The translations under genes and the position numbers were made by a program. From Caulochytrium protostelioides (taxonomy: Eukaryota > Chytridiomycota > Caulochytriomycetes > Caulochytriales > Caulochytriaceae), in contig ML014184.1 of the NCBI GenBank assembly GCA_003615045.1, positions 1 through 64,000 on the forward strand: DNA of 64,000 nt, in the 5' to 3' direction. The notes beneath the pieces were generated by a model, which had not been told where the DNA came from, searched no databases, and saw nothing but the letters and a program-made list of their open reading frames with translations. Shown piece after piece: positions 13,085 through 56,180 of the stretch. Every line of letters starts with the position of its first letter. The stretch's first letter is position 1.

Positions 13085-13540
13085 CCAAGTCCTCAAGAGG
13101 GCAGTCCGCATTGAGTTCGTCTTCCTCCATGGTTGGTGCTCAGCGACGGATGGACCAGCTGACCCCCGACGGCGAAGTGCTCCGCAACGCGGCACAACGC
13201 AGCAAGCCTCGCGGGCGAGGCCAGGCAGTGTAGGGCATTCGAGGCGGCATTCAGCTCGCAGTTCACAAACTTGCTGTAAATGAGGAAATCACACCCCATC
13301 AAGCCACCTGGCCACGGCCTTCTTGGGTCAGCTTCACACTTGCTTCAAGATCGTAACAATCGAATCACCATGTTTCTACGTTATGGAATCGCATAAGTAT
13401 GGCTATCGGGGAGTACTCTGGAGTCATCAGGCATGTTGAGCCCGCGCTCGCCGCTGGAAAATCTCTGCCCGATGTGACGATGGGCAAAGCCGTGATGAGA
13501 TGGTGCTTTTTGCGCGATTCCGATGACGACTCTGTTGGAT
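13085..13540 (-). pseudogene. Fanzor (eukaryotic TnpB-like) relic A
   Basis: Fanzors are RNA-guided DNA endonucleases of eukaryotic transposons, related to TnpB. Read on the minus strand, the better-preserved block (about 13300-13150) contains SKFVNCELNAASNALHC, followed by LASPARLAALCRV. This aligns with the RuvC-III motif of the other copies here, but the catalytic Asp of DLNAA has become Glu. Further upstream, about 13540-13420, NRVVIGIAQKAP and GQRFSSGERG align with the segment before the last zinc-knuckle region of relic B. The region between them, including the TT-x-x-H segment, is missing, and the frame is broken. The relic is convergent with the DNA polymerase gamma gene and begins about 90 bp beyond its stop. 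Confidence 0.6.
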
Positions 13541-15918
13541 TCGTCGTTTCGACGTCGACAGGTGGTCAACCCGGTAATCACGGGCGGAACATGGGAATTG
13601 TGCCTTCGAGATTTTGATCTGATGGTCACCGTGATGGGATCATCGTCATCCTCTGCCACCCGCCGTCAGGACCGCTGGCAACCACCGGGGGCCGAGGCGG
13701 CGGTCGATCGCATCAGACCTATCGCGCTGTCGCTCGTTCGATACCTCCCCGACGGAGTCTCGTCTCGCTCCTCTCACGATCGCCCGAGCTCTCCCCGCCA
13801 CACGCCCCGCTACGCCACGGGGCGGACCACATGCCGCCCACGCTGTGCGCTCGGCTGAATCCGGCGCCTTCCGAGAGGCCCAACGGTATGCCGGATCTGG
13901 CACAGACGTGGTGCAGCGCCGTCGGATGCGAATCGCGTGACAGCGACGCGGACGCCGCCGCCCGCAACGCCCGGGAAGGCCGCGGGTCATCCGCCGCCGT
14001 GGAGAGCGGCGCTCGCGCGGATCATCGCGTCCACCATGCCGCAGGTGGCACGGATCATGGCACGCGGCGCTGGCCACGCGGGCTGACATGGGTGGCACGA
14101 CCGCCGTCCTTGCCGTTGTCGTCGCTGTTGCCGTCGCTGCTACCGGCGCTGCCATCGTCGACCCGGAGGCTGTCCGAACGACGCCGTGGCTGGAATGGTG
14201 GCGGCGCCATCCCCGACGCCACCGTGGCTTCGACGGTCCGAACGGATCCGAAGCGCATGCGCATGTCCGCGGGCAAGCGCATGGCCCGGCCAACGAGCCT
14301 GCGGGCCTGCGCATTGCTGGCGCCGTGTGCTGGATCCTTCCACGGCGCGTCGAGCGTCGCCACGAATCGAGCCATGATCGCGTCATCCACCCGGTCCGCG
14401 CCGTGCCCGTGACCGCGAGACGAGGGGGGCTTGTGGCCGCGGCTGTTGGGCCGTCAGCCGGCCTACCTCGCCAGCCCACCGAGCGCTCGGGCACGATGAT
14501 GGCCAGCGCGCCGCCGGTCCGTGGCCTCGTCCTCTTTCCGACGCCGGTGTGGGGAAGCGTAGGGGGAGTCGTCAACAGGGCGGCGGCGGCGGCAGCGGCG
14601 GCAGCGGCGGCAGCGGCGGCGGCGGCGGCGGCGGCGGCCTAGCCGCAGACCGACCCAGTGGTCCATCACACACCACGCCGCGGCAAGATGTGGCGCCCGT
14701 GCTCGACGGACACCCCCGATACCGGTCTGTGGGGGGTGTGGCACTCGAGCGCCTTTTCTTGAGCAAAAAAAAAAAAGAGAGAAGGGGCTGATGCTGGCGG
14801 CAACCGTCGCTGCCGTTTGTTTGGCGGGGCCCGCGTCGACGCCAAATTGGAGTGACCTCGCGCGATCGGTGTGCGGCCGTGCGGTCCATCGCGCGAGAGA
14901 CCGTGATGGGTGGCATCATGGCGCGGCAGCATCGGCCGCCAGCTCGGCATCTCCGGCACGGCGGCGAGCCAAGGCCCGCCCAGGACTCATCGTGCATTGG
15001 CCAGCGCGCCAATGCCATCTCCATGTTGGCCGTTCGGGCGGGGCCGGGAGCCATGGCGAGCGGCGAAGCGGCGACCTGACGAAACGGCATCATACCACCA
15101 AGAACAGCGTGTCAACACGCATCGTGCTGTCGGCGACGCCATCCGTCGCAGCAAAGGCCCACACAGGCATGTCCAAACAGGTGGTGCGGACGTCACGATG
15201 GCTCGGCATATCCCTCCGCCGTTTTGCCAAAATGCCGTGCTGGGCCAGATCGGGAGTATCGCTAAAAAAAAGTGGTTTGTCTTTCGGGCCACTCGTGAGC
15301 GGGCCACGCTCGCCTAGACCTTGGCATCATATGCCTCGACGCGAGGGCCGAAGCATCGGCACCCGTCTGTCGCGCGGGACCGCCATCATGGATGTCGACC
15401 GATACATATACCGCCAAAATCTCGACAGGCTGGGTTCAACGTGCAACGCATGCTGATGAGGCGTGTACCCCCATGGTTGTCTCATGCCTGGTACCCATTG
15501 TGTATCGTGGTCAGTACTCGATCTGACGCGCTGATTAATCACCTGCTGCTTAATAACCTCCGCCCTGCCGCCTGACCGCCTGACACACCCTCGTCATACC
15601 GTCAACTGACTCCAAACCTCACGACTTGCCATTCACAGAAGAGCCGCCTTCCCGTCGGCCACCGATCCGTTCCACACGTCTGCTGCTTGCCGTCGCTGTC
15701 TGCCTCGGCGCCCGTCTCTGGACGCGTCCTCATCCGTGATCGGTCTCGCACGCCGCGCCGCGCCGCGCCGCGCTGCCACCGCCAATACGGCCGTCCAAAC
15801 GCGCCGCCCGCGCCGTGCGTCGTCCACGGCCGCCGACCGCTGCGCCCTGCTCCGGCCGCGCCGCGCCGCTCGCGCGGTCTCGCCTCCGACTCGCCGTCTC
15901 GCGCCGCTCGCGTGCATC
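13541..15918. other. Long intergenic stretch, no supported gene
   Basis: Frames of 100-300 codons occur on both strands, but all are compositionally monotonous (Arg, Ala, Pro, Gly) and none shows a domain. One minus frame at 14055-14390 has a more mixed composition and could be an exon, without any family signal. A (GGC)n/(GGCAGC)n microsatellite lies at 14578-14640 and an A12 tract at about 14766-14777. Confidence 0.4.
14578..14640. repeat. GGC / GGCAGC microsatellite
   Basis: An uninterrupted run of ggc and ggcagc units, flanked by unique sequence. No associated gene was found. Confidence 0.8.
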
Positions 15919-17466
15919 ATGACCCATGTCATGACGCTCGATCTGCTGGCCGCTCAGCTCACCGCCTCGCCGAAATCACCCTATCACTGCGGCGCCGCCG
16001 CCGCGTTGTCGCCGGCCGCGCCGGTCTCGCCGAGCCCATCGACAACGGGCCCCTCGCCGCGCCACGCCGCCGCCGCCACTGCCGCTCCAGCCATGTCGGT
16101 CGTGACCGCCGTCGCCATCGTCGCGACGCCCGCTGCGGGCAAGCTGTCCGCCGACGCCATGAGCCTCGACATGCCGCGGCGGAGCGCCGGCCTCGTGAGC
16201 GCCGACATGAGTCTGGTGAGCCCCGCGTGCAGCCCCTGCGGTGCCGCGGCCAAGCATGCGTCCTCGCCGATCCTGTCGCCCGTCTCGCCGGCGTCCGAGT
16301 CGGCTTCCGAGTCGCCGTCGGTCGCGCCGGCCGCCGTGCCTGAGCCCACCGCGCCCACAATGACCGTCACCGCGGCTGCTGCCACAACTCCTTCGACGAC
16401 GCCTTCGACGACGGCGACGCCAACGACGCCCACATCGCTGTCCGCGCTGCCGCCGCTGCCGACCCTGCAGCCGGCCTCGACGCCGCCACGGTCCCGCCGT
16501 CGCTCCTCCATCGTCGTCGCCGCCGTCGCGTGCTTCTCGGCCGCCGCCGCCGCAACGTCCTCCGTCGCGCAACGCATGGCCAGCGTCACCCACAGCCACG
16601 CCAGCGCTTCCGCCGCCGCGTCGCCTACCGCCACCGCCGCCGCGGGCGTCCACGACGCCGCCGCCGGCTCGCCACTCGCGGCTAAACCGGCAGGCCGTAA
16701 GGCCCGGTTCGGTCGCGGCCTCGGCCTGCGGCTGCCGCTCGCCGCGCTGAAAGGCCGGTCATCGTCGGACCATGGCCCGCCATCCGCCGCGACCCCGGCG
16801 GCGGCGGCGGCGGCGGCGGCGCCCGCGCAAGCGTCGACGCTGCTCGCGACGCCGCGACTGACCATGGCGCCCTGCGGCAGCGAAGCCAACGCGGCGAATC
16901 CGGACATCTATGTCACGGGCCCGCGCGCGATCCTGCCGGGGCTCTACCTGGGCTCGGCAGCCAACGCCACCGACCAGGCGCACCTGGCCACGCTCGGCGT
17001 CTCGTTTGTCGTCAACGTGGCCAAGGAGCTCGGTCCCGGCGGCGACGGCGAGCACGCGGCGGCAATCGCGGCGGCCGTCGGGCAGAATGCTCACGAAACG
17101 CTCCACGTGCCGTGGACGCACGCGGGGCCGCTCGAGCCCTCGCTGACGGCCACGCTGGACGCGCTCCACCGCGCTCACGCGACCGAGGGCCGCACCGTCC
17201 TGGTGCACTGTGCCCAGGGCGTCAGCCGCAGCGCGACACTCGTGGTCGCGTATGTGATGCTCAAAGAGAACTGGCCGTGGGCCCGAGCCTATGCCTACGT
17301 GAAGAGCCGCAGCGAGAGCGTCTGCCCGAATGTCGGCCTCGTCGGGGAAGTCCTCGCCTGGGATGCCGAGCGCCGTGAATCGCCCGCCGCTGGGCCCGCC
17401 GCTGGGCCCGCCGCTGTGACCGCCGCTGGGCCCGCCGCCGTGCACGCCACCCCCCTCGAGCCGTAG
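15919..17466 (+). CDS. Dual-specificity-phosphatase-like protein
   Basis: A 515-aa protein from the ATG at 15919 with two parts. Residues 1 to about 325 are low-complexity Ala/Ser/Thr/Pro sequence with a basic stretch near the end. From about 335 comes a compact dual-specificity phosphatase domain: ILPGLYLGSAANATDQ, then LGVSFVVNVAKEL, then the active site VLVHCAQGVSRSATLVVAYVM with the nucleophilic Cys near residue 431 and the Arg in HCx5R. The following WPWARAYAYVKSRSESVCPN fits the usual helix. Active members carry a general-acid Asp before this loop; here the matching segment reads LHVPWTHAGPLEPSL without an Asp, so activity may be reduced or substrate binding changed. The tail after about residue 495 is a short AGPAAGPA repeat. 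The substrate cannot be told. Confidence 0.8.
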   Translation: MTHVMTLDLLAAQLTASPKSPYHCGAAAALSPAAPVSPSPSTTGPSPRHAAAATAAPAMSVVTAVAIVATPAAGKLSADAMSLDMPRRSAGLVSADMSLVSPACSPCGAAAKHASSPILSPVSPASESASESPSVAPAAVPEPTAPTMTVTAAAATTPSTTPSTTATPTTPTSLSALPPLPTLQPASTPPRSRRRSSIVVAAVACFSAAAAATSSVAQRMASVTHSHASASAAASPTATAAAGVHDAAAGSPLAAKPAGRKARFGRGLGLRLPLAALKGRSSSDHGPPSAATPAAAAAAAAPAQASTLLATPRLTMAPCGSEANAANPDIYVTGPRAILPGLYLGSAANATDQAHLATLGVSFVVNVAKELGPGGDGEHAAAIAAAVGQNAHETLHVPWTHAGPLEPSLTATLDALHRAHATEGRTVLVHCAQGVSRSATLVVAYVMLKENWPWARAYAYVKSRSESVCPNVGLVGEVLAWDAERRESPAAGPAAGPAAVTAAGPAAVHATPLEP

Positions 17467-17998
17467 CGGCTGCCCCGAGCCGTCGTGTAACAACTCTCTC
17501 CGTTTTCTCGGACCGCGCTTTGTGCGCTCTCTTTTGTTCTACATGGGCCTCTTCTTGTGTGAGTCATATTTTATTTGCAGGCTTGCCAAGCACCCCTTCT
17601 AACGGAGTCGAAACAATGTGTCACGCTTACGAGCCAGCGGCGACGAGGCCGCTGCTCGGTAAAGGGGGGACGGTCTATGGACGGTCGACTGGCACGATAG
17701 ATGGGACGTCCATACCATGGGCAGAAGTCGGAGCCCAGGGCTGATTGCGAAACCGTCAGAGCCGATCAGCGGAATCGATGTCGGTACTCATGTGTCACGG
17801 ACACCGTTGCTCCCACCTTGATGTCGCGATACTCTACCACGCTGACTGATCCGGAGCCTCGGTGCCCCCGTGGCCCCCGTTGACACTGTTCATTGTTTTC
17901 CGGGGCCCGCCCGTTCGTCTCATACGACTTCCTCTCAACCCTTCCTCCTCTCCCCGCCTGCCAGTCTCGTTCGGTGGCCCACCATTAGCCGTGCCACC
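17467..17998. other. Spacer before a secreted-protein gene
   Basis: The base composition drops from very GC-rich to mixed just after the phosphatase gene and stays so through the next gene and the Fanzor relic behind it. No repeat or gene was seen in the spacer. Confidence 0.35.
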
Positions 17999-19591: not shown

Positions 19592-19627
19592 CTCTCTTAT
19601 TTAATCTTCGTTGTGTCGTTATATGTC

Positions 19628-20350
19628 AGTATCGGGCTCACCAGCGCCTGCGGCTGAACAGTGGCAAACAGCGCGTGTTTGCCTAGTTCCTGAACCGCGT
19701 CGCCAACAGGGCAGCCACGGAGATGGCGCCCGTGGCCGCTGAAGTGGTTGCCTTTGGGACCTCCAAGTTGGCGCCTGGGGGCAACGGCGAGATCGCCGTC
19801 CCGACACCTCGCGCGTACCAGGCGTGCGCCCACCGGTTCCGCTCCATCCTAGTCGACGGGTTCCGGACGACCCAGCTGCATGCCGAGACGAACGAGATCC
19901 TGACCCAGGTAATACCCGCGGGACCCGACGACCGTGTCGATCGCTGGTACGTCCCGGGCGGGTGCCCGCTCGACCGAGCCGACACGGGTCAACCCGGCCC
20001 GTAGGACTGGGGTGCTCCCCCCGACTGAACCGATGGCCGTCAACCGGGTCCGCAAGACCGGGGTAAACGCCCGGACCGATGTGGTCCTGAAATCCCGGCC
20101 AAGCCGGCGCCAGGGGAGCGTGGTCTGAGGTTGGCTGTGGTGTGATGCCACCAACGGCAAGGTTGTGAACGGCGATCTCAATGCCGCGTAGAGTATCCGA
20201 CGCTGTCGGGCCTTGCCCGCCAGACCGATAGCGGTGTGCCGCAACCGGGAGCAAACCAAGCTGCAGACTGTCGTCAACAAGCTCATCAGACACGGAACCG
20301 AATGCGCTTCGGCCTCGGTGGGGGGGTCCCCTGGGGGGCGCCATAGAGGT
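19628..20350 (+). pseudogene. Fanzor (eukaryotic TnpB-like) relic B
   Basis: The fragment starts just after the secreted gene. It shows, in order, a segment around GKQRVFA and FLNRVANRAA (interrupted by a stop); VVAFGTSKLAPGGNGEIAVP (about 19744-19803); RAYQACAHRFRSILVDGF followed by RTTQLHAETNEILTQV (to about 19910); a degenerate linker; then GWLWCDATNGKVVNGDLNAA (to about 20187) and SIRRC. The last block is the RuvC-III region of TnpB/Fanzor. A TAG stop replaces the residue after DLNAA and other stops separate the blocks. The Glu expected in the VDE segment is Gly here. Everything N-terminal of the middle of the nuclease, including RuvC-I, is absent. The element cannot encode an active nuclease. 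Confidence 0.75.
20330..20349 (+). other. Shared 3' end motif of Fanzor relic B
   Basis: The sequence cctggggggcgccatagagg lies 157 bp after the RuvC-III Asp codon. Sixteen of its 20 bases match the motif at 56157-56176 behind relic E. Weaker forms follow the other relics, so it may mark the element's right end or guide-RNA region. Confidence 0.5.
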
Positions 20351-20648
20351 GTTCGCGTGTGGTAAGGAAAGATATAGACGAGAAGCTCGTGAAAAAAGAT
20401 CGTTTGCCTACACGCATGGCACGAGTGCATGCCCGCGATGTGTGCACCCCCTGCGTCGATCGATCCAGATCGATCGAGTGATGAATCCAGAATCAGTCTC
20501 ATTGCTGTGGGGGCGTCTCGAGGTCGCGCGTTGTTGACAGGGAGGGTGACGACGCCTCGCGTCGGTGATGAGTATCTCGCGTCTCGATCAGCCGCGAAGC
20601 AGCGCGGAGGAGGACCAGAGCAGATACGATGGCCATCCCGAAGGGCGG

Positions 20649-23472: not shown

Positions 23473-23511
<39 letters not shown>

Positions 23512-25041: not shown

Positions 25042-26563
25042 CTACGCCTGGCCCGGATGCTTCCACGTCTTGCGGTGGTACCGCAGCCCAGCGCTGGTGC
25101 TGTAGATCTTGTCGCAGCCTTCGATGGGGCACTTGTGCACGCAGGGCTTGCGCGTGACCTTCGGATGCGGCACAAGCGCGAGACGGTGGTGGTTGCGCAA
25201 GTGGTAGCGCAGCCCGGCGCTCGTCGAGTAGGTCTTGTCGCACTCCGTCTGCTGGCAGACCCACAGCCGCGTGCCGTCCGGGTTGCGGATGTACGTCGCG
25301 TACGCGCCGCCGCGCGACGGCGGCGGCGCGTTCGCCGTCGAGATGACGCCGGGCACCAGGGCGTGCGGGTGGCTCGGCGCGGTGCGCGACGACGGCGAGC
25401 TCTTGCTACTGCTGCTGGTGCTGCTCGCGGCCGCCGACGCCGACGGCGACGCCTTGGCCGACGACGGGTCCGCCTTGATCATCGGAAGCGGCGGCGGTGC
25501 CGACGCGCCCACGGCGGCCGCCGCCGCCGCCGCGGCGGCGGCCGCGGCCGCCGTCGTCGTCGTGACAGGGCCGCCGCTCCCGAGCGGGGACGGCGACGCC
25601 AGCCCTGAGGCGAGGGAGGCCGGGTTCGGGTGCAGGGCGCCCGGCGGCGTGTGCATGCCCGCCATGCCGCCCGGGTGGCCCATCGACGCGTGCATGCCCG
25701 CCATGCCGTGCATGCCCATGGCGCTGTGCATGCTCGTCGCGTGCGAGATGCTCATGGCGCCCGCGGCCGCCGCAGCGGCGGCCGCCGCGGCTGCCGCCGC
25801 GTGATGCGGGTGGTGCGGGTGGTGCGTCACCGCGCCGTTCGCGCCGTTCGCACCGACCGTGCCCGGCTGCGAGGTGGCGTGCGCATGGTAGGGGTTCGTC
25901 ATGGCTTGCTGCGAGCTCTGGCTCTGCTGGGCGGCAGCGGCATACGGGTGCTGCGAGGCAGGCGCGCCGTACGGCGTGCCCGGGTGCGCGCCGTAGGCGC
26001 CATAGGCTGCCGCGGCCGCCGCCGCTGCAGCCGCAGCCGGGTGCTGGTGCTGCGGCTGGTGGTGGTGCTGCGGCTGATGGTGCTGTTGTTGGTGCTGCTG
26101 CTGCTGCTGCTGCTGTTGATGGTGCTGATGGTGTTGCTGCTGCGAGTGCTGATGCTGCGCGTATGCCGCGACCGCTTGAGCCTGCGCTTGAGCGACGGCA
26201 TGGGCCTGCGCATGCGCAATGACCTGAGCCTGCGCCTGGGTGGCACGGATCTTGTGTGCCATCGCTGCCGCTGCCGCATTGTTGGACTGCGCGGCCGCCG
26301 CATCCGAAGCATCGGATCCACCGGGCGTTGACGGCGCATGAGACGGTGACGGCATCGGGCTCTGCTGGTTGCCCAGGTGCGCCATCATCAAGTGCTGGTT
26401 GTCCTGCTGCTGTTGCTGCTGGTGGTGGTGGTGTTGCTGGTGCTGCTGGTGCTGCTGCTGTGAATGTTGCTGCTGCGAGTGCTGCTGCTGCTGCTGTTGG
26501 TGGTGCTGGTGCTGCTGCTGCTGGTGCTGCTGCTGCTGCTGCTGCGAATGTTGCTGCTGCGAG

Positions 26564-26624
<61 letters not shown>

Positions 26625-27848
26625 AGGGCGTGGACGCGCCGCTGGCAGGCACGCTCCGCTGTGGACTGCTGCGGGTGCTGCCCGGCACGCTCCCGGCCAA
26701 GCTAGCGTTGGCGCCGGTATCGATGCGATTCGGGCTGCCGCCGACGGAGGACCCCGCCGAGGAGGAACCCGTCGACGACACGAGCGCCGGCATCGTGCCG
26801 ACGGCGCCGTTCACCGCCGGTGACGAGGTCGCGAGCGACGCGGTCAGCGACGCCGCAACGCCCGTGGTGGCGGACGTGGTGGCCGCGCCGGTGGTGTGCG
26901 CGGGCAAGCCGGCCATTCCGCCGACGCCCATCGTCATCGGCACGCCCATACCCGCCATGCCGGCCATCCCGGCCATGCCGGCCATCCCGGCCATCCCGGC
27001 CATCCCCATCGCGGCGGCGGCCTGAGCTTGAGCTTGAGCTTGAGCTTGGGCTTGGGCTTGGGCCTGAGCGTGCTGGTGGGCGGCGACGGCGTAAGCGGCG
27101 CGCTGGGCGGCCGCCGAGGCCGGGAAGTAGGCGGCCGACACGGCGTCGGTGTCGGCGTGGGGCGGCGGCTTCGCCGGAACGCTGTCGGTCGCGCCGTGGG
27201 ACGGCGCAGCGACGTGCGGCTGCGGCGGCACGCCGTTGACGGGCGAATACATGTTCCAGTCCAAGGCTTCGTGAGACGCCAGGCGCTGCGGCTGCGGCGA
27301 CGGCTGCGGCACGTACGCGGCGGCGAGGGCGTGCGGCGGCAGCTGCCGGTGGTACGGCGACACGGGCGTCGAGCCGCGAAGGGAAGCGGCGAGCACCGAG
27401 TCAGCGCTCGAAGCGGACGACGCGACGACGGCCGTGGCAGTCCCAGCGGCGACGGCGGCGGCGGCGGCGGGGCTCGATTTCAACGTCGGAGGCGGCGTCG
27501 GCGTCGGCGCGAACAGGGCTGCGGGCAGAGGGCTTGCGGACAACCCAGCGGCCGAGGCAGCAGCCGTGACGGGCGGGGTGGCGTTGTACAGTTGCTGCGT
27601 GTAGCTCACGTAGCCTGCACCGGGCGAGGGGACCGTGGTCAAGGGCGACGGAATCGAGTGCACCAACGGCGACGGCGTCTGATGGGAGCGCGACGGGTGG
27701 TGATGGTGTTGTTGTGGTTGCTGTTGCTGTTGCTGCTGCGGCTGTGGCTGCTGCGGCTGCTGCGAGTAAACGTGCGGCGGATCGATCACGTGCGGCTGCG
27801 GTTGCTGCGAGTGTTGGTGAGCATACGGCAGCGACGGGTGAGGGTGCA

Positions 27849-27895
<47 letters not shown>

Positions 27896-28197
27896 AGCGC
27901 TGGGGTCGGTGATGGTGACACGGCGGCAGATCGGTGGTCGGGTGACGTGGACGCGGTCTTGAATGGATGGCCGCGGAGGCCGAGGCTGGCGGAGGCCGCG
28001 GTCGGGGGCGTGGCCGCGCCGGCGGGGGGCGGCGGCGGCGGCGGCGGCGGCGGCGTGGGCGTGGACGACGGCACGTGGGAGGGCGACGGCGGCGACGGCG
28101 ACGGCGGCGACGACGCGAACGGCACGGCGACGGCGACGGCGACGGCGGCAAGCGGATCTCCCTGGCGGCGAGCTGGCGGCGGGCTGGAGCGCATCAC
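25042..28197 (-). CDS. Poly-Gln/His C2H2 zinc-finger protein, putative transcription factor
   Basis: A 1051-aa single-exon protein. Almost all of it is low complexity: Pro/Ser-rich at the start, then long Gln, Gln-His and Ala runs, a (GMA)n stretch, and Ser/Lys near the end. The only folded part is the C-terminus, about residues 977-1047, with two C2H2 fingers: WVCQQTECDKTYSTSAGLRY with a following HLRNHH, and HKCPIEGCDKIYSTSAGLRY with a following HRKTWKH. The fingers share CDK-YSTSAGLRYH, so they look like a duplication. A sequence-specific regulator with glutamine-rich activation regions is the natural reading; the target is unknown. The codon runs are mostly CAG, so the gene is prone to repeat-length change. 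Its start at 28197 is the first ATG of the frame. Confidence 0.75.
26560..26625. repeat. (CTG)n run encoding poly-Gln
   Basis: A near-perfect CTG repeat on the plus strand, read as CAG on the coding strand of the zinc-finger gene. A second run lies at about 27850-27892 in the same gene. Confidence 0.85.
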
Positions 28198-30199: not shown

Positions 30200-30233
<34 letters not shown>

Positions 30234-31866: not shown

Positions 31867-31901
<35 letters not shown>

Positions 31902-42230: not shown

Positions 42231-42469
42231 GGATCTGGACCAGAGAACGGTCGCACCGGCGGTAGCCGCGACGACGGTCTTCCTGACATGCGCCCGCTTC
42301 CGCGACTGCCCGTGCCCTTCCGTCCCCACGATTTGCGTCCCCAATCAAACAATCTTCGTTCCCGCCAGCATGCGCAGGCGCTGCCGAGCGGGGCGGGTAG
42401 GGGCAGGTTGGAAGCGTCTTGTTTCGGCTTCCATCCAAGCTGGAATGATACCTTGTTGCACTTTCTTGT

Positions 42470-43110
42470 AATGTCAAGTGACAGCGTATAAAGGCTCTTC
42501 CTTGAGACGACCTAACACGCACATCATCCCCTCCATGGTGCCTTCCAGCCGTACCCACAGAGGCAATACACATACGGTTCAGTGTCGGATGAGCTTGCCG
42601 ACCATGGGCTGCAGCCGAGCTTGCCCGGGGTTGTGGCACACCGCCTCCGGTCTGACGGGTACGGCCAGGCAGCGTCGGATGTTCAGCGCGGCATGGAGAT
42701 CGCGGTTCACCGACTTGTCGTTGGTAGCTTCACGCCACAGCAAACCTGGGACCACTGCCGCCGGCGTTGACAGGGTTTCAGGACCGCATGCGTCTGGGCA
42801 TACACCCGGATCCTGCCGACCCGGTCGATGGACCTCGGCGCGGTCGGGCGGGCCCCCGCCCTGCGCGCGACGTTAACACTGCCGTCGTGTCCCCGATTTT
42901 CGCCTTTGTCAGGACCTGATTCGCCTCGGCATGCACCTGGGTCGTCCCGAACTCGTCGACCAGGATGGTGCGGAGCCGCTGAGCGCATGCCTGGTATGCC
43001 CGCGATGTTAGAACCGAGATTACGCCCTTGCCCTCGGTGGCTTCATCGTCAAATGCCTGATATAAGAGTATGTCTACCAACGCCCTGTTTGTCTTGGGGA
43101 TTATCCCAGG
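42470..43110 (-). pseudogene. Fanzor (eukaryotic TnpB-like) relic C
   Basis: On the minus strand the frame from about 43110 to 42850 reads KTNRALVDILLYQAFDDEA, then EGKGVISVLTSRAYQACAQR and LRTILVDEFGTTQVHAEANQVL. After a degenerate linker, another frame gives WREATNDKSVNRDLHAALNI followed by RRCLAVPVRPEAVCHNPGQA. This copy keeps both the Glu in VDEF and the Asp in RDLHAA, so it is the least damaged at these two sites, but one Asn of the motif is His, frames are broken between blocks and the N-terminal half is missing. A motif shared with the other relics (ggctggaaggcaccatggag, minus strand) lies 149 bp after the Asp codon, at 42531-42550. Confidence 0.75.
42531..42550 (-). other. Shared 3' end motif of Fanzor relic C
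   Basis: The minus-strand sequence ggctggaaggcaccatggag matches the gg-caccatggag core behind relics E and B. It is a candidate element right end or guide-RNA segment. Confidence 0.45.
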
Positions 43111-44715
43111 GCGTGCACATTGTCGGCAGCTTTCTTGAAATGGGCTTGGCTTCAGGACTTTGTTTCACATTTGAGTCACCGCCGTCGATTATTTGGGCCA
43201 GGCGAAGGCGACGCCCTATGGGGCGCTGTGGGACAAGTTGAACGTGATATCTGTGGGAGGCGGTTTTGGTGCGGCAAGATAGGCGATGTTATGCTTTGGC
43301 TTGGTACGTTCTTACGCGGCGTCGCTAGCGGCGTCGCTACCTCAGCGTTGTGTAATCAAGAGCCTTCCACCGGCACCCGGACTCATGGGGGAACCAGAGC
43401 AATGACGACACTATCCTTCGACACTATCGATGCCGAAGACGTGGCTTGCCGAACTCATGATGGGCTCCGGAATTTCAGTGGGTAGGGGTCTGTCCAGGTC
43501 CCACACTGCACAGCACCGCTATATGCAAACCTGGGTGGCTCCTCCTCTTCTATCGTGGAAAGTCACGGCATCGCGGTCGGCCACCCGAGACTACTACTCC
43601 TTTTCCCCGTAAAGCAGACTGAAGGTGAGGACCTCAATCGCTTCGGCCGAGCGTTGTTTCCAGAGCAAGCCTGCCTGATAAATGGATAAATGGACCCCCA
43701 AACTCCGTTGGGCGTCACATTGACGCCCCATGGGCGCAGTTCTTGGTCACGTTGAGCTCGTTCAGGAAAAGTTCCCCCGAGGCCTCCTCCCCTTAACTCC
43801 GCTCCGTTATCTTTTATATCTTTTCACCAAAAAAAAAAAAAAATAGTAAGACATGTGTAAACTTAGTGGTCCTAAAACTTAGTGACTTGGCAGCGACGCG
43901 ACGACGGTGTCGAAGCGGCAGCTCTGCTGCCCGCGTGATAATGAGCCGGAATTTTTTTTGGACATCAGTTTTGGACAGCAGTTCTTTCGAGCTGGGGCTC
44001 CAGCGATGTGGCGATGCCCCCATGCCTAGACCGAAGCCGGCGATCATGCTTTGACCGAAGCCGGCGAGAAGTCCTCGCTTTTCAGACAGACATTTCTTGG
44101 GGATCGCTATCTGCATGGAGCCCAAGTGAGGGTCGTGATAAGGCCTACGCCCGCCGATGGCATCCTGGACGGTGGGGCCCACTCTTGCAGGCGACACGTC
44201 GCAGTTCTCCGATCATGTCGTCGGGCAGCACAGGGTGCTGCCTCATGATTAGATGGCCAACGTCCGGATGGGCACGGGCGTCGTGCATGCCGCTCGGCTG
44301 GCCGCGATCGGCCTATATAAAGACTTCTAGGGTGGTTTCTGAGTGACTCGTATTCGACAAGTCGTGAACAAGCCATGCACGCGCTGTGGTTACCCGTGCC
44401 AGATGGATCCTTCCCTCCCGGTGGGTCATGCAGCCTACAGCATTCACATGTAGCGCCCTGACTCACATTGGCATCATCGGCATCATCTCTGCAGCTTGGA
44501 ACGCGTGGGCTAATCTAACTTTCTTACGGCTAATACGGCTCGGTCTGCCTTTTCCGGTGCGCTCCCTGCCGTACGCTTCGTCTGCTCGTTCACGCTCCTA
44601 CCGCGCTCCTACCGCGTCCGTCTGACTTTCGTCGCCGCGACATTCGTTCATCTCCCCGGCTTCCCTGCTAGCGCCGTCGCCCCAGCCCACCTCGGACCCC
44701 CCCCATCATCGCATC
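43111..44715. other. AT-richer stretch between a Fanzor relic and a secreted-protein gene
   Basis: Composition is clearly lower in GC than the window average. A 121-codon plus frame (43120-43485) and a 127-codon minus frame (43814-44197) are the only longer ones and neither is recognised. An A15 run at about 43829-43843 precedes tag. A short direct repeat (gaccgaagccggcga) occurs twice at about 44030-44070. It may be decayed mobile DNA. Confidence 0.4.
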
Positions 44716-46248
44716 ATGCGGCGCCACTATGGGCTGCTGCTCGCCCTCTGGTCAGTCTTGTGTTTGTGTCACATAGTCCATGCCATCGAGCGATCGCAGA
44801 GCGACTCCTCGGAATCGGCCTTCGTCACCGACTATATCGAGCGCACCGATCAGGACGTTTTGTCCAAGGAATCCGCCGAATTTCTCTCCACTGTGTGGCC
44901 TCTACCGCCACACGTGGCACCATCCACGTCGCGAAGCAAAAACGTGCTGCGAACCACACACGGACTTCACCGATACGATCTGGCCGATTTGGCTCCGAAA
45001 CAGGTCCTAGCTGACCAGTGGCACGCCCATCTGAATGAGGTGATGAACAAGTTAGATACCCTTCTCGATGGCAAACCGGAGGTGGTCGGGGCGCGTATCA
45101 TCTCCAGCCTCTTCGACATCATCGGAGATCTCTTGCAACCGTCGTTTATCATGTCCCGTACGGAGACCCTTGTTCCCGCGATTTTCGCGTTTAATTCGTG
45201 GTTGCGCACCCCAACTGATCGAAAGGATTCGCCCTGGAATGACTTGAACGCGGCACTGACGAGGATCAACGAGCAGCGACCGCTCCAAGCCTTCCCAGAG
45301 ATCGAACGGACGATGCAGATTTACGTGGACTATATAGGCGCCCTGCAGACGCGCTGGTTAGCAGCGCATCGGATCCGGTATTACGATACTCATACCGACG
45401 AGCTGTCCTTCACCGCTCAACGTTTGGGTGTCGCGTTGAGCCATCTCCAAATCCTGGCGTCAGATGCCGGAGAGACACTCGTCGCCAACAAGGCTGGTTG
45501 GCCACGCTCATTGCCTTTTCCCGCTAGGACGGAGGGTCTTAGCGAGGACTATATCAACCTTGATCGCGTTTTCGTCGGATCGCGGCTCTACAAGCTGGGG
45601 CCGGCGGAGTCGCTGAGGTCTGAGCCTGAGTACGCGCCCCAAGATGAGTTTGAATTTCGTGAGCCTGATCATCGGATCGATATCTACGATTTTGCGGAGA
45701 AGATGCGGAAGGCAACACCTTTCGATGCGTTTGAACTGATCCTGAACGACGTCTTCCCGCTTGCCTCGGTTCCGAAAGACACGGACATCACTTATGACTT
45801 GGTCCGTGACCTTGCTAAGGCGATCATTGGATTGATCATGCCGCTCTACGAATTGGCGGACGCTCAGAGCGTCACGTTGCGACAAAAGGACTACACCACT
45901 GTTTACACGACAGCCGAGAAACAGTTCTGTAAAGCCAGCGGGAGAATACAGAAATGTATCGACCAAATTCTGAAATTCGATCGAGTTTCACCGGTATTTG
46001 GGCAGCAGAGCATGTTTGTCTCGACGATGGTCCACCGGTTGCCGCTGATGAATGTCTCAGGCAATCGCTATGACCACCGGTCCTTTTTCGCGAAAGCCAC
46101 CGGCACTCGTTATACGACCCCCGCAAGGAGCACGATCGCACGTCACGCTCCCACCCGTTCCCTCTCCTCACCTGAAGTAGCCGCATTGACAGCGCCCTCA
46201 GCGAGGTCGATCTTCAAGGCGACATCGATTGAAAACCTTCACTTCTAA
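44716..46248 (+). CDS. Predicted secreted protein, 510 aa, unknown family
   Basis: The ATG at 44716 opens a single frame. The first 23 residues, RRHYGLLLALWSVLCLCHIV and HA, form a clear signal peptide, with cleavage plausible after VHA. The mature protein is helical-looking, with many Asp, Arg, Leu and Tyr residues and only two Cys in the body (FCKA and KCID). No second membrane helix or known domain is seen. A segment HRIDIYDFAEKMRKA and a later FCKASGRIQKCID lie in the same order as DLDLYAMIQSFVEK and FCKAAKQFNNFL in the secreted protein at 17999-19591, which suggests remote paralogy. Codon use is less GC-rich than in the housekeeping genes. Fanzor relic D begins about 22 bp after the stop on the same strand. 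Confidence 0.7.
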   Translation: MRRHYGLLLALWSVLCLCHIVHAIERSQSDSSESAFVTDYIERTDQDVLSKESAEFLSTVWPLPPHVAPSTSRSKNVLRTTHGLHRYDLADLAPKQVLADQWHAHLNEVMNKLDTLLDGKPEVVGARIISSLFDIIGDLLQPSFIMSRTETLVPAIFAFNSWLRTPTDRKDSPWNDLNAALTRINEQRPLQAFPEIERTMQIYVDYIGALQTRWLAAHRIRYYDTHTDELSFTAQRLGVALSHLQILASDAGETLVANKAGWPRSLPFPARTEGLSEDYINLDRVFVGSRLYKLGPAESLRSEPEYAPQDEFEFREPDHRIDIYDFAEKMRKATPFDAFELILNDVFPLASVPKDTDITYDLVRDLAKAIIGLIMPLYELADAQSVTLRQKDYTTVYTTAEKQFCKASGRIQKCIDQILKFDRVSPVFGQQSMFVSTMVHRLPLMNVSGNRYDHRSFFAKATGTRYTTPARSTIARHAPTRSLSSPEVAALTAPSARSIFKATSIENLHF

Positions 46249-46269
46249 CCATCTTTACCTAAAAACGCG

Positions 46270-46820
46270 TTCCTGTTTGTCCACGGAGGGAACGGCAAGA
46301 TCGGGGCGCTACCCTCTCGGGCCTACCAGGCGTGGGCCCAACGCTTGCGTACCGTCTTGGTCGACGGTCGAGGTCCGGGCGACCCTGGTGCATGCCGGGA
46401 CGAACGAAATGCTGGCCGTGCCGATCACTCGCGCGTCCTGGGCCGGCGCGTCCCGGCGCGAGCCGAGGGTCGATCCACCGGGTCCGCAGGCCTCGGGCAA
46501 GCGTTCCCTCCACCGGGCCTCCGGTCAACCCGGCCCGCAGGATCCAGGTGTCTGCCCCGACGACCGTCGTCCTGAAATCCAGTCAACGCCGCCGCCAGGA
46601 GACCGTGGTCCGAGGGTCGCTGGGGTGTGATGCCATCCACGGCAAGCTTGCGACCGGCGATCTCAATGCCGCATTGAACATCCGGCGCTGCCTAGCGTTA
46701 CCCGCGAGACCGATCGCGCGGTGCCGCCACCAGGTGGCAGCAACATTGTCACGCTCATCCTGATGCCTCGCGCGCGCTGCCTCGATGGGCGACCCCTCGG
46801 GGGGCACCCCCCTGGGTGGG
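46270..46820 (+). pseudogene. Fanzor (eukaryotic TnpB-like) relic D
   Basis: Right behind the secreted gene the plus strand reads FVHGGNGKIGALPSRAYQAW, then AQRLRTVLVDG (about 46273-46370). A frameshift follows, and the adjacent frame continues ATLVHAGTNEMLAVP. After a degenerate linker comes GCDAIHGKLATGDLNAALNI and then RRCLALPARPIARCR (about 46622-46727). The RuvC-III DLNAALNI block is well preserved, the Glu of the VDE segment is lost, and nothing N-terminal of the GNGKI segment remains. It is shorter at the 5' side than relic B, so the junction with the secreted gene differs. A weak form of the shared 3' motif follows at 46795-46814. Confidence 0.7.
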
Positions 46821-48271
46821 GTTGGGTGGGGGGGATGGCGGGCGCGTGAGGATGGGCCGCCAAAGATGAGCACACGTCGGTTGATCGAAAATGGCGTCGC
46901 TGGCTTGAGGACTCGGCGATGGCGCTGCATGCGCGTCTGAGCCGCCCACGGCCGCGCGTGGCCGTGGGCGGATCCGCTGGGCCGTCGCAGCAGCGGACGG
47001 ACTCCATTCGACACCGGCTTCGACGCTGCGTCTGCTGCCATACGGCGCGGCGTGTTTCCTCGCGGTTGCCTTAATTTTCTCTTTTCTCTCTATTTTTTCG
47101 CGGTGGCGGCGCGGGGTAGCTGGAGGCGTCCGTCCCATCGATCCCGTCGGCGCTGCTGCTGCTGCTGCTGCTGCTGCCGCGGCCACGACCACCGCCGAGC
47201 CGAGAAGAAAGCACCACTGGTACTCGACGCCGGCGCGAGGAAAAAAAGGGCCAAGCCGACGGGGAGGGCCGACTCGCCCGCCTCGGGCCAGCAGGCCGAC
47301 AACGCCCGCCGGCATGCGGGCGGGGCCTTCATGCACCGAGGCGCGCGGACGGCGCCCGGCGTGGAGGGGCGTCGCGCTCGCCTGCTCGCCGCGCTGCAGG
47401 GCGCTGCAGGGCGCGCCTTCCTCGCTCGATGCCTCGCTGGCCCGGCCTCGCGCGCGCTCGCTCGCGCGCTCGCTCGGCGGACCGCCCTGATGCCGCCGCG
47501 GCGGGCGGAATCTGAAACGCTCGCGAGGCCGTTGATGTCGCCGCGATGGGCCGCGGCCGCCGCCGCCGCCGCGCCAGGCGACCGACGGCGTCGCGGCGGT
47601 GAGGCGTGGTGCGATGGCGGTGCCTGCCCGCCGGGTGCCTGCCCGCCGGGTGCCTGCCGGGGTCGGGCCACAGCGCCGCTCACGACGGCCGCGGCCGCAG
47701 GGGAGGATGCACGGCATCGCGCAATGGCATCGTCGGCCGGGGCCGGTCGTCCCTCGTCGAGGGGCCACGGGAGGCGCAGGGCCGGGCCTCGTTCCCAGCG
47801 ACGGCGGTGGCGCCCGTGCCCAGGAGGCCCGGGCGAGTATGCCGGCAGCGAGGGCGACGCATCGCCCGCGCACGAGGCGTTGCCCATGGTACCCGCGGTA
47901 CCCGCGGTACCCCAGGACCGCTCGGACCGCTAGGACCGCGGCGAGGATGCCGACAGAGACCTCGGAAACCCTAAAGCGACGACGCCGCTGCCCGTAGCAA
48001 GACGGATGGCCCGGTCGCCGGCTGGCTCGGCGTGCCCCGTCGCACCCACACCCCACGTGCGCACAAGGCCCCATGGTCCCACCGCCAACAACCGCCATCG
48101 GCACTCTCAGTCCGTCCTGACGCTCGTTTCACTCGCGCTGGTTCAACGCCGTCCGAGGTTCCCTGAGACTCATCCGATTGGTGCTGACTCCCGCGCCAGC
48201 GTTCCTCGCCTGCCTCGCAGTTCTCTCTCATCCGCCGCCGCGCCGTCTCTTTCCTTTTTCTTGATTTCGCC
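46821..48271. other. GC-rich spacer without a supported gene
   Basis: Overlapping frames of up to 449 codons (minus) and 293 codons (plus) occupy the region, all Arg/Ala/Gly/Pro-rich. A (CTG)n run of about eight units sits at 47153-47176, and a tandem of gcgggcctgcc-like units at about 47620-47655. The end should contain the promoter of the membrane protein gene. Confidence 0.4.
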
Positions 48272-48787: not shown

Positions 48788-49564
48788 GCGACGCGGCTCG
48801 GGCGAAGGCCCCTTTCACCGTCCTATCGTGGCCCGGCCGTCCGGCGTGCCCCCTTCCGCGCCACCAGCTGCCGGTGAGCTCCGGCGCCCTCGCCGGTATC
48901 AGCACGTCCAAGAGCCCGACGGCAAAGCAGGCCACTGCCGCTGTTGGCTTCGAGCCGTCATTCGCCCATCGCTGCCGCCAGTCGCCCATCGCCGCCGCTG
49001 CTGCAGCCGAGCGACGGGGCAGAGCCGCTCCTTCGCCGCCAGCAGGATGGTGATGTCGTCGAGTGGCCGCCGTCCGATGCATGCTGTCCCGTGGTGCCAT
49101 TTCTGCTGTGCGCTTCCTCGGTGATATTGATGTCCATCCCCTGTCGCTCCTCGCTGCCGCTCCGCGGCACGGTTGTTTCATTTTTGTTGTTGTTGTTGTT
49201 GTTGCTTTCCCCGCATCCTCCTATTTATAGACTGACGTCGCTCGCGGCCGTATCTTTGACGCTCGGGCTGACGGCCTGAACGCCGTTCTACGCCCACGTG
49301 ACCTCACTCCGTTGTCGTTTCCTCATTGTCGCCCCCTTCCTCCTTATATCTATCGCGTCCTACCTCATCGAACCACGTGCCATTCTAAAAAACTCTGTGA
49401 TACTTGACGACCCATGGTCTCACAACCCTGCGCGGGTGTGCAGGGCAGCCATGCCCTGTTGAGAAAGAGGGGATGCCTCGGGCTGTGGGGCCGTGATCGC
49501 GTGGGTCCCGATGCATTCATGAAAAGAGACCGGTACATGTGGGTTGACCCCCTAAAGTAGAACA
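48788..49564. other. Convergent 3' region
   Basis: It lies between two convergent genes. It contains a (TTG)n run at about 49180-49204. No gene is supported. Confidence 0.4.
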
Positions 49565-52150: not shown

Positions 52151-55100
52151 ACCGCGCTGCCGCCCAGCGGTGGCGCGGGCGACGCTGGCGTCGTCAGGCA
52201 CAGCCGGGGTCGCGCGCGCCAGGCGCAGCGGTCGTAAACCCGGTGGTGGCGGCGGCGGTGGCCGTTGCCCTGGACGGGGTCGTGGTGGGGGTATCGTGGC
52301 GGGGAGGGGCAGGCACCGCGGCGGCGAGGATCGGGAGGCGCTGCGGGGCCGCAGGGATGGCCGCTGTCGTCGCGGCGACCATGGCGCTGGGCACGAGCAC
52401 GGGCAGGCGGCGGCGGCGGCGGCGGCCGAGGAAGACGCGGCAGACGGCGTGATCCGGACGCGGATCTGTCGCGGCGCCGCGGCGTCTGGCCGCATGCCCA
52501 TGGGCGCACTCGTCGGCGTCGGCGTCGGCGTCGGGCCGGCCGCGAGTAGCGCTGCAGGCACGCCAGCGCTGGCGCAGGCGTGACGCGCCCGCGAGCGGGC
52601 GGGAGGCTTCGGCGGGCGGGACGCGGCCGAGCCCGTCGCGGGTTCCCCGGTCCACGAAAGCCCGCGCCGTGGGCGGAAAGGCGAGCGATCGAGAGCAATC
52701 GGGGAGGTGATGCAAAACGATGCAAAACGATGCAAAACGATGCAAAACGATGCAAAACGATGCGATGCAATGCGATGCGATGCGATGCAATGCGAGGCGA
52801 GGCGATGCAATGCGAGGCGAGGCGAGGCAATGCGATGCGAGGCGATGTGGGAGGGCGGGGAGAGGCGGGCGGTCGGTCGGTCGGGGACGGGGCCACCGCA
52901 CCGCACCGCAAGGCTCTGCACCGTACTGCACCGTACTGCACCGCACCGCACCGCACCACACAGAGGCAAGGCGAGACGATAGGAGGCGTTGTGATGCCGA
53001 GAGGCCCCAGCGGCAAGTCTCCGCAAGCCGCAAGCGGATGCGGGCGATGGGTGGCCGGGCCGATGCGTCGACGTCCGCGGCAGGCGCACGGATGAATTCC
53101 AGGTATGGCACAGGACGGCGACAGCGATGTGCCGGCTTTTCAGGAGCGCCGCACCTACTGGCTGGACCAGGCTTCCTGCGGCCGCCAGGCCGTGTCGGCG
53201 GCCACCGAGCGTCTTAGGGCTGAAGCGGGCAGGCACGGCGGCGCCACCACACCGACCCGAGGTGGGAAAGAGGGGCTGCGGCTGAGCCGCGCTTGGCGAT
53301 GGCCAATGCGCAAGGCGAGGGGCCGGGAGCGGGGCGAGCAGCCCAGCGCGCAGACGACCGGAGGGCCACGACGAGGGATGGGAATCAGGGCTAGGGGACG
53401 CGGATCTGCGGGAGGCGATGCCGACAGGCCCATGTGGCGCACCCGTGGTGATGGCGTGAAGACCGTGCCAGCAAGGCGACGCCTGTGTGCGATCGTGGTT
53501 GCTCACGGATGCCGGACGGTGGACGGCGGACGGCCAACGGCGGCCAATGGCGATTGGCGGCAACCCGCTCTCCTCCGAAAGACAATGCGATGCCGTGCGG
53601 ATGCGCGGGCGTATGGATCCCTATGTTCTTATCCTGACGCGCCGGAAGACGCGTCGCCGACGTCCTCGCAGTCACCGTCATCGACGTCGACGTGGTCGTC
53701 GGCGTGGTCGTCGTTGTCGGCCGACCGAGAAGCGGTGTCGCGACGCGCTTCGCCCTTCCTTGAGGAGAGCGCGGGCCATTCCACCCGAGCGCACGCCACG
53801 GCCGCCTGGGTGCCACCGAGTCTGTCGTGGGCCTTGCGCTTGCCGCTGTTTGTATGGGCCGACGGGCATTTTGGCATTTTGGCATTTAGGGCATCCGCAG
53901 GTGGTTGAAGCCGTGCCCAGCGTGCGCCCCCGCCATCGCCTTCGCCCCTTTTTCAGGCCTTTTCGGGATGATGCTGTTCGCCTGGTGGGCCAAACCGCGC
54001 GACTGCAGCTGACCGCCCACATCCGGGCAAGCTGTCGGCCTCCGAGTCCCCGTCGGGCCTGGACGGAGCGCGCGCCGCGACGGCCGGGCTGACGCGGCTC
54101 AAAACCCAAGTTTATACGGCCGTGACGCGCGGCATCGACGTGCAGCACGGCCCACGGCCCACGGCATACGGCGGGTGCTGCGCATGTGCTGCGCATCGCA
54201 TTGCCACCGCATCGCGTCGCATCCTGCCGGCGTCCCGTCGCTGCAGGGCGGCGGGATGTGGCTTTGCGGGCTGACGCCGCCTTCGCGCGAGACGGAACGA
54301 AAGCCGGCCGGGGCGTCAGCAGCAGCAACGACGAAGACCCTACGCGCCGGATCGAGCCCCACCGGCCCTCCTGACGCGTGCATCGCGCGGCGCATCCGCA
54401 CAAAGGGGCGATCCCGCTTCAGCGCCCAAGCCCCTCCCCGGACGCGAGCCATCGCCGTCCTGGTGGCGAAAGAGCCTTAGCGGCAGGTCGTTTCAGGATA
54501 CCGGTCTGGCCGGTCCTGGCCGCTCTTGGTGCACACGCGCCGCGCGGCAGGATCCCACACGCCGCAGACGCGACCTGCAAGCGCCAGCGCACCTCCGGGC
54601 CAACATCTCCGAGACGGCGCCCGCAGGGGGCACCCACACGGACAGGAACCAAAACAGGGCGAGGCGCGTGGCATACGTTCCCCCCAGCACGAAGTCTCCT
54701 GACACCTACGTTCGACACGCTGGACTGCGGTGTTGATGATTGCCGCTGCACTTAACGCGGAGGTGGCACGGTGAGGGTGGCATATTCTTTCTCGGCTGGA
54801 CCGTCGGGGCCCCGTTTTCATGCCTACGGGATGTCGATGTGAACGCGTTTAGAGCCTTATTTATTTTATTTCATTTTTGGAAAAATGCATCAGCGTCGGC
54901 AGCCCGAAGCGCCGTCGACTCGACCGCTCCGAGAAGCCGCAACGTCGAAACGGAGACGGTGGTCTGGCTGCGCCGCTGAAACACCATGCTGGGCGTCGCG
55001 GACACCGCCAAATCATATCCCGGCGTGGGCGACCACTATCGGGACTATCCGTTACTGGCCGCCAGATTGCCCACGCAGCGCCACCTCGGCGACCGCAGCA

Positions 55101-55489
55101 TTTATATTTATTACTGCCGGCGTCATCGAGTACCATACCAATCTGAACAGTCATTCAATGCTTAGCTTCGAGGCGCGGGTCAAAAGTACCTGCGCGTCTT
55201 CCAGAGAATCAACGATCTGACGGGTCCGCAGCGCCTCTGGATGCTACGTCGGATCTGGGGATGGACGCCACGTGGATCCGGAAGCCGTGAAGTGGTTGCG
55301 GGTCATGGAGCAGTCGACGGCTGCGCACTGCAGTGTGCAAGGTCTCGAGGCGGAAAAAAACGCGCCGCCTCACGAGCTGAACAGCAAGGACACCTTGCAT
55401 CATCTCGTGGGCCGCACTTTGCTCGTCTGGCGACAGCCAGGAGGCCACTGAGCCGCCGGCCGTCAAAGTAATGCCAGTGCGCCCTCTCT
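52151..55489. other. Upstream region and long spacer without a supported gene
   Basis: Up to about 53563 the frame of the membrane protein gene remains open but reads as low-complexity sequence. Simple repeats occur at 52708-52860 and 52915-52960. From about 54840 the composition becomes AT-richer and stays so to about 56700, across Fanzor relic E. The part from about 55150 to 55490 may be decayed N-terminal Fanzor sequence, but I cannot show it. Confidence 0.4.
52708..52850. repeat. ATGCAAAACG decamer tandem array passing into GATGC/AGGCG repeats
   Basis: About five perfect copies of the 10-bp unit atgcaaaacg are followed by irregular five-base units (gatgc, aatgc, aggcg). A second array of ctgcaccgta/ccgca units follows at about 52915-52960. 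Confidence 0.85.
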
Positions 55490-56180
55490 ATCACCGTCGA
55501 CATCAGCGTATTCTACGGCTTGCTGAAGGAATTCAAGGTGGTCTGCGACTGAGCGGCATTCAAGATTATAGCCACAGAGCCGTGGGCGGCCACTGTGGCG
55601 TCCCGTAAGCTGGAAGGCAAGGACCACACGTTCTCTCATAGCAGCGACGGCGACGGCATCTGCGCATGCGTGCCTGTTTTTCTGGCGCGAGGAAAAGGTG
55701 GCCGACGCCGTGCCTACTATCAAGGCTGCCTCCGAGACAAAGAAACCCTTGGCAGGCAGCTTGGATGAGTACCGCATCCTCGGAAAAGACCCCCGGCAGA
55801 ACTAATATTCTTATGGCTAAAGCAGTTCGACGGCCAATCGTCAGCTGGAAGCTGACCAGAAAAAAAGAAACCCCTGGTGGTCGCCTATGGCGCATCCAAG
55901 TTTACCCCCGGAGACAAGGGCGAGATCGCCGTTGCCGGGTCGTGAAACAAGGGCAACACCGGCGCTAGGGGATGTGATTCGAGGGTTGCTATGGTGTGGT
56001 CCCACTAACAGCAAGTTTGCGCGATCTCAATGCCGCGTTGAACATCGGATGCTGCCTGGCCTCACCCGTCAGAACTGCGGCGCTGTGCCGCATTCCCGGG
56101 CAAGCCCCCTGCAGCCCGTGGTCAGCAGGCTCAACCGGCCTCATGCGCTGCTGCCTCCTGGGGGGTACCATGGATGATTG
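55490..56180 (+). pseudogene. Fanzor (eukaryotic TnpB-like) relic E, retains RuvC-I
   Basis: This copy keeps the most domains. In order: SVDISVFYGLLKEF-like sequence; HTFSHSSDGDGICACV (about 55624-55671), matching the TDG segment before RuvC-I; LDEYRILGKDPRQN (about 55761-55802), matching the RuvC-I DPG region with Asp at 55788; a large deletion; KPLVVAYGASKFTPGDKGEI (about 55870-55927); a second deletion that removes the zinc-knuckle region; then GLLWCGPTNSKFA and RDLNAALNI (RuvC-III Asp codon at 56023), followed by CCLASPVRTAALCR. Frameshifts and stops separate the blocks, so it is a pseudogene. It ends about 90 bp from the stop of the convergent small secreted gene. Confidence 0.75.
56157..56176 (+). 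other. Shared 3' end motif of Fanzor relic E
   Basis: The sequence cctggggggtaccatggatg lies 134 bp after the RuvC-III Asp codon and matches the motif of relic B at 16 of 20 positions. Confidence 0.5.

Follow-up and report, generated by a model that had tools for sequence, protein, structure and literature searches.

What are the five broken, mutually similar blocks that lie within 43 kb on contig ML014184.1 of Caulochytrium protostelioides (assembly GCA_003615045.1), and what kind of element left them there? The blocks, here called copies A to E, were found in the first 64,000 nucleotides of the contig, the whole stretch analysed and hereafter the window. The host is a chytrid, as had been guessed correctly from the letters alone, and passages of PMC6784888 describe it as mycoparasitic. 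A sequence-only reading had taken the blocks for relics of one family of Fanzor, a nuclease of the TnpB/Fanzor group and the relative in eukaryotes of the CRISPR-Cas12 nucleases, that was once active in this genome. We consider it likely that all five are dead remains of a single family of Fanzor1-type transposable elements in C. protostelioides, whose nuclease would have been guided in the way proposed below. Two things had not been foreseen: the zinc ribbon is missing from the family, and a far larger set of copies, of which the five are a small part, is spread through the genome. No report of this family in Caulochytrium was found among the open-licence PMC papers that our searches listed.

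All five blocks carry the shared RuvC-III-like pattern that had been noticed at the outset. By pattern search and three-frame reading it was placed at 13257 (-) in copy A, where it is weak (ELNAASNA), and at 20174 (+) in copy B (DLNAA, then a stop). It lies at 42701 (-) in copy C (DLHAALNI, in the context RDLHAALNI), at 46659 (+) in copy D (DLNAALNI) and at 56023 (+) in copy E (DLNAALNI, in the context RDLNAALNI). The upstream blocks named at the outset are present too, with one restriction: the TTQ.HAE block is present at 19867 in copy B and 42945 in copy C, with a blurred ATLVHAGTNE at 46379 in copy D, but the VVAFG-K-APG-NGEI block is clear in B and E alone (VVAFG at 19744, VVAYG at 55877). 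At the DNA level all ten pairs of copies align, with 67.8-78.6% identity over the aligned parts and E values of 1e-60 to 9e-5 (blastn). Relatives longer than 550 residues matched all five regions by tblastn, with best E values from 4e-7 (A) to 1e-33 (E); for copy B the best match was the host's own annotated protein P0008 (1e-24), the best foreign one reaching 2e-18. Chance similarity among the copies was rejected by these pairwise alignments and tblastn matches. No other window region reached E 1e-5 or was matched by four or more of the fetched family loci (tblastn). The start of copy E, first put at 55.5 kb, moves to about 54.9 kb, its N-terminal half being matched at 54986-55811 (tblastn). 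Stops and frameshifts break the window copies. At the catalytic places copy E, the sole window copy found to retain the RuvC-I place, has KTPGRTN where relatives have DPGR.N (EKTPGRTNI at 55780, against G.DPGR.NI), and copy B has VDGFRTT instead of VDEFRTT.

We assign the family to Fanzor1 because of its profile matches in the Protein Data Bank (PDB), the fold of an intact relative, and three marks, namely the DPG motif, the rearranged glutamate and the TDG motif; the Fanzor identity first suggested is thereby borne out and narrowed. A profile of 29 relatives matched Fanzor1 structures alone (PpFz1, 6.7e-17; SpuFz1, 2.8e-10; GtFz1, 0.034). Such a profile was needed, as a PDB search with a single copy (the L004 frame) gave no match up to E 10. 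The structure predicted for an intact relative (pLDDT, the predicted local distance difference test, 89.6) has the fold of the solved Fanzor1 proteins, with PpFz1 at the top (Z 26.5). DPGR at RuvC-I was found in 63 of the 66 measurable proteins among the first 77 relatives, and the own-genome copies L022 and L025 read NDPGRTN there. In SPu-1 the RuvC-II glutamate is rearranged to a position before the TNB domain, with glycine in the old place (G500/E536); the 29 relatives correspondingly have an invariant G508 and a nearly invariant E542. The spacing between the two is 34 in 46 of 66 relatives and different in 12, and it was not found in eight. The relatives also have [TS][TS] after the glutamate and RD..NAA..NI at RuvC-III, the latter form being present in window copies C and E as well. 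The TDG motif of the WED domain stands in the majority line of alignment A1 of the relatives, and the loose pattern [TS]D[GA] occurs anywhere before RuvC-I in 63 of 66. The label PF26935 is precomputed on many relatives and did not appear in our Pfam scan of seven.

Could the similarity point to another RuvC lineage, or could the relics descend from a host gene? Foldseek with the predicted structure does list Cas12 proteins and a Fanzor2 (E 4e-6 to 9e-4), as expected if the blocks belonged to some other RuvC/TnpB/Cas12 lineage. However, among the solved proteins listed the three Fanzor1 species lie at least 9 Z units above all else, with the Fanzor2 9b0l at 10.1 and TnpB at 10.0-10.3, and we give this alternative very little credence. 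A virus origin was also set aside: profile A1 confirmed as relatives none of 316 pattern stretches from viral contigs and none of 369 from bacterial and archaeal genomes, a miss that is not proof because the search patterns were short and exact. The crowding of five copies inside 43 kb would suit local or segmental duplication of a host gene. Yet matches lie on many contigs, homology ends at set places beyond which the flanks differ, and no intact host gene was present among the fetched loci, so that such an origin is highly improbable. A Fanzor1-type mobile family is the reading that we retain.

The size of this family became apparent when the 20.9-Mb genome (337 contigs) was searched. A 601-bp piece of copy B (19700-20300) gave 45 matches, its own place among them, with 40 of 535 candidates scored. 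A 320-residue frame on contig C43 brought 167 (125 of 1171 scored), and the N-terminal half of a relative 127 (117 of 212 scored). Because the window copies were not among the C43-frame match rows shown, they belong to the weaker copies, and the true number exceeds the number scored. Two contig-end copies (G000:C155 and C230) agree in length and nearly in score, perhaps because one place was assembled twice. Identity among fetched loci has a median of 75.7% and a highest kept value of 92.7%, with a transition/transversion ratio of 1.24 (2700 alignments); alignments above 97% were left out, so very young pairs are not counted. The longest uninterrupted family frame seen is the 320-residue one on C43, while a 526-residue open frame on C37 has family sequence in its RuvC half alone. 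In the search for a source copy, as proposed with the first reading, no intact full-length copy was seen among the scored candidates, which are a minority of all. That the family was once active in this genome is well supported by its high copy number, the many contigs, shared ends and internally deleted forms. Locus L022 (G000:C6, near 206900-207500) encodes 141 residues of CXG81DRAFT_23488 (P0008) exactly, then 54 more in another frame. This gene model, which fuses a Fanzor relic to a following other-frame stretch unlike Fanzor, is probably a mis-annotation.

Downstream of the stop codon, the copies share a conserved non-coding block some 150 nt long. It was recognised by nhmmer in 75 distinct copies (82 matches), among them all window copies but A, with a profile based on 37 of 38 rows (copy A dropped). 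Within it lie a long stem (CCTCGGTGG ... CCACCGAGG, with variants) and a terminal hairpin whose stems differ by copy (ATGAGC/GCTCAT, ACGAGC/GCTCGT, GAGCATACGT/ACGTATGTTC). The hairpin precedes an A-rich stretch, where the copies cease to resemble each other. Pairing was counted in 40 of 66 references, picked for an alignable terminal hairpin, and the structure was hand-drawn from these rows, so that the percentages lean towards it: 76.3% of cells are paired, against 36-54% in slid versions, and the pairing score exceeds those of all slid versions. Cells changed on both sides number 40, compared with 21.2 +/- 4.2 in shuffles (reached in 0 of 500) and 13-24 in slid versions. Covariation is clearest at pairs 33/65 (G-C 6, C-G 5, U-G 4, U-A 1, unpaired 23) and 140/188 (U-A 12, C-G 9, U-G 6, unpaired 13). 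A separate stem test on 49 of the 75 copies, using simple shuffles and leaving out 23 copies without the anchor motif and three that were too short, gave 5.53 against 4.73 bp (p 0.0046; flank control, p 0.18), with eight copies against none at p 0.05. From this pattern the block is probably the omega RNA scaffold; a transposition hairpin is the main rival, and both may hold. Eleven loci (L002, L008, L022, L031, L032, L036, L038, L043, L049, L051 and L054) have two 3'-block matches each, in the same or opposite direction, and represent nested or clustered insertions, or split matches.

Several results weigh against the account given so far. In the 3' block, the number of pairs changed on both sides (12) lies within the slid range of 8-14, and that of further pair types (34) within 20-36; RNAalifold gave no consensus structure for the block, and a search of Rfam with it gave no match. 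At the element ends, the one copy examined with both ends yielded, in a search for terminal inverted repeats (TIRs) and target-site duplications (TSDs), just an unconvincing 6-base match, and searches for Helitron and RVT_1 domains tied no transposase to the element. In the protein, the zinc ribbon is missing: of 119 relatives, 103 were measurable, and none of them has a CxxC between the glutamate and RuvC-III. The Pfam zinc-ribbon model gave no match from four candidates in the whole genome, a search in which six of 14 control genomes gave matches.

The missing ribbon also sets the family apart. The TnpB profile check proposed at the outset fails with the Pfam zinc-ribbon model; the silence of that model likely reflects the missing ribbon. 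In a Pfam scan of two copies, one had a sub-threshold PF07282 match (15.2 bits against a cut-off of 26.3) and the other none, and of seven relatives scanned four had a sub-threshold match and three had none. Five relatives bear a precomputed PF07282 label, and the four of these shown in sequence lack the CxxC. P0111, one of the 16 relatives not measurable by pattern, does have ribbon cysteines and, from its sequence, looks like an intermediate. The zinc ribbon belongs to the Fanzor/TnpB motif of 2013 as given in parts of PMC3627910, and a 2023 paper ascribes a C4 zinc ribbon to 'many' Fanzors, not all. Because this family lacks the C4 ribbon we file it, on its sequence, not with the standard Fanzor1s but as a variant branch that departs from the motif of 2013.

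In place of the ribbon, the eight readable C. protostelioides copies have a longer insert. Between the glutamate and RuvC-III, 93 relatives have a distance of 39-69 residues (median 45), these eight copies one of 87-132. A lag of 18 residues scored best in four of the five inserts tested; in L005 a lag of 20 was best and 18 second. The best lag's score was reached by 248, 42, 0, 0 and 1 of 1000 shuffles in the five, and the L025 insert was perhaps read partly out of frame. The 18-residue period rests on these lag counts because a DNA tandem repeat finder found nothing. The insert would thus be built, at least in part, of repeats of about 18 residues, variable in number.

How did the element move? 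Some copies have a sharp left end, which starts at a ACTGCACAGG-like sequence and sits upstream of a TATA-like stretch; four of 22 non-self matches start there, at query 64-65, as do six of the seven left ends displayed (for C14 and C70 the end was set by offset, and C70 is without the ACTG start). Since the left end lies near C-terminal coding sequence in C19, C252 and C14, these copies are internal deletions. One further match, at G000:C107:28482-28531, is to sequence immediately upstream of where the left end of the C315 copy is placed (query 10-59). In other loci the same coding region is preceded by at least two further 5' sequence types (L075 and L080; L074, L076 and L079), so that several subfamilies with different left parts existed.

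Instead of an omega RNA, the 3' block may be a DNA-level transposition signal, the Helitron2-like end (subterminal hairpin, no TIR) of a carrier as in the Chlamydomonas elements CRe-1/2/3, and we regard this as a real possibility that falls short of an even chance. It would account for a terminal hairpin that keeps its position immediately before the A-rich end while its stem differs among copies, for the absence of a convincing TIR or TSD in the copy that was examined at both ends, and for the internal deletions. End matches are more numerous at 3' (40, with a 175-base query) than at 5' (23, with a 421-base query), and portions of PMC3627910 report 5' truncation, internal deletion and 3' over-abundance for CRe-1/2/3. 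However, match numbers vary with the query words and with the several 5' types; the expected asymmetric inverted repeat is borderline, its score being reached by 0, 1, 4, 12, 19 and 24 of 60 shuffles at six left ends; no consistent 5' hairpin was found at the left ends examined; and a Helitron_like_N search of the genome gave no match, though the control genomes were silent too. Spread as reverse-transcribed (LINE-like or processed) copies, with 5' truncation and an A-rich 3' end, would explain the A-rich stretch behind the hairpin, and the genome does have 19 RVT_1 matches. A transcript copy, though, would lack the TATA-like stretch and the sharp left end upstream of it, both of which the repeat includes, and some copies join the left end to C-terminal sequence without the middle; reverse transcription is therefore improbable.

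For the Fanzor1-type family itself, RNA guidance and the mode of transposition are what we infer. The living element would have encoded a RuvC nuclease of about 600 residues, with a REC/WED half and a RuvC half and, unlike described Fanzor1s, no zinc ribbon between RuvC-II and RuvC-III. The nuclease would have bound an omega RNA read from the element's own 3' block, with the DNA immediately past the right end as the source of its guide, and would have cleaved DNA wherever a site matched. Such cleavage may have served persistence or spread of the element, while a transposase supplied elsewhere would have moved it. A bolder picture is tentative, and somewhat unlikely to hold as a whole: a zinc-ribbonless Fanzor1 branch would extend across eukaryotic metagenomes, with the ribbon replaced in Caulochytrium by a varying count of 18-residue repeats; its elements would be TIR-less and hairpin-ended, with a 3' hairpin block in the double role of transposition signal and omega RNA scaffold; and it would have reached hundreds of copies before becoming extinct in this genome.

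Fanzor1 elements in chytrids are of a known kind; new are the zinc-ribbonless branch and its repeat-like insert, here in a large dead population. Searches with zinc-ribbon profiles miss or barely touch this branch, so that Fanzors may be more abundant in fungi and metagenomes than has been estimated. Should living relatives prove to function without the ribbon, it would be dispensable for RNA-guided cutting, and the branch would provide a natural variant for comparison. A large dead Fanzor family in a genome also documents the multiplication and loss of such nucleases.

Table 1. Remnants of the Fanzor1-like family in the window
Copy	Feature	Positions	Strand	Evidence
A	Scrap of about 150 bp, C-terminal RuvC-III region	13150..13305	-	tblastn 13305-13177 to P0005 residues 563-605, 3.8e-7; blastn to B, C, D, E
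B	Frameshifted RuvC half, helix before VVAFG to C-terminus	19600..20290	+	tblastn P0008 1.2e-24 (19636-19899), P0005 2.1e-18 (20039-20290)
B	Conserved non-coding 3' block, candidate omega RNA scaffold / element right end	20273..20412	+	nhmmer 3.4e-23
C	Frameshifted RuvC half	42585..43050	-	tblastn to P0011 residues 518-630, two pieces, 3.5e-19
C	Conserved non-coding 3' block	42434..42604	-	nhmmer 1.2e-32
D	Frameshifted RuvC half	46250..46754	+	tblastn P0002 residues 533-600 1.2e-12, P0005 to 46754; blastn to B 187 bits from 46285
D	Decayed, weak non-coding 3' block	46775..46874	+	nhmmer 6.7e-5
E	Frameshifted N-terminal (REC/WED) half	54900..55811	+	tblastn P0005 residues 102-372, 1.2e-33; P0007 to 55811
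E	RuvC-II/III remnant	55814..56106	+	tblastn to P0005; VVAYG 55877, DLNAALNI 56023
E	First part of non-coding 3' block (partial)	56120..56174	+	nhmmer 8.6e-7

The copies lie outside eight long frames scanned with Pfam, copies B and D beginning at most 10 bases from the ends of two of them. A POLG-like gene (9391-12999, +), with a mitochondrial DNA polymerase exonuclease domain (9.2e-88) and DNA_pol_A, adjoins relic A, and Pfam also identified genes for a dynein light intermediate chain (4170-6380, -), a dual-specificity phosphatase (15610-17466, +) and a DEAD-box rRNA helicase (58224-61001, +). A RuvC-III lookalike, DLNAALTR at 45241 (+) within the frame 44626-46248, is without family support by tblastn and is due to chance. 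Two arrays were seen: one at 52709-52850 with a unit of about 10 bp (GATGCAAAAC), grading into GATGC/GAGGC repeats, and a long CTG-rich one at 26020-26667, within the span of a large opposite-strand open frame (25042-28197).

Among known Fanzor1 systems, SpuFz1 of Spizellomyces punctatus (SPu-1; PDB 8gkh) has the ribbon cysteines CPRC and GLLGCTNPNC in the alignment, whereas the Caulochytrium family lacks the ribbon. Parts of PMC3627910 describe 33-bp TIRs, putative TA duplications and intact copies for SPu-1; for the Caulochytrium family no TIR was found and no intact copy was seen. PpFz1 of Parasitella parasitica (PDB 9cf0), the closest to the relatives by both profile match and Z, likewise has ribbon cysteines in the alignment where the Caulochytrium family has none. 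It carries a RuvC insertion that binds cyclophilin, according to sections of PMC11423790, while the Caulochytrium insert lies between RuvC-II and RuvC-III and has the 18-residue period. The CRe-1, CRe-2 and CRe-3 elements of Chlamydomonas reinhardtii, in which Fanzor1 is borne by Helitron2, are described in parts of PMC3627910 as inserting after TTTT or T-rich tetranucleotides and as having exons, asymmetric terminal inverted repeats and often variable TSDs, none of which is established for the Caulochytrium family. A protein of another Chlamydomonas, P0053 of C. eustigma, is among the relatives. The picture of ends and deletions in Caulochytrium resembles that of the CRe elements, for which the same source reports internal deletion of copies and a hairpin immediately ahead of the right end.

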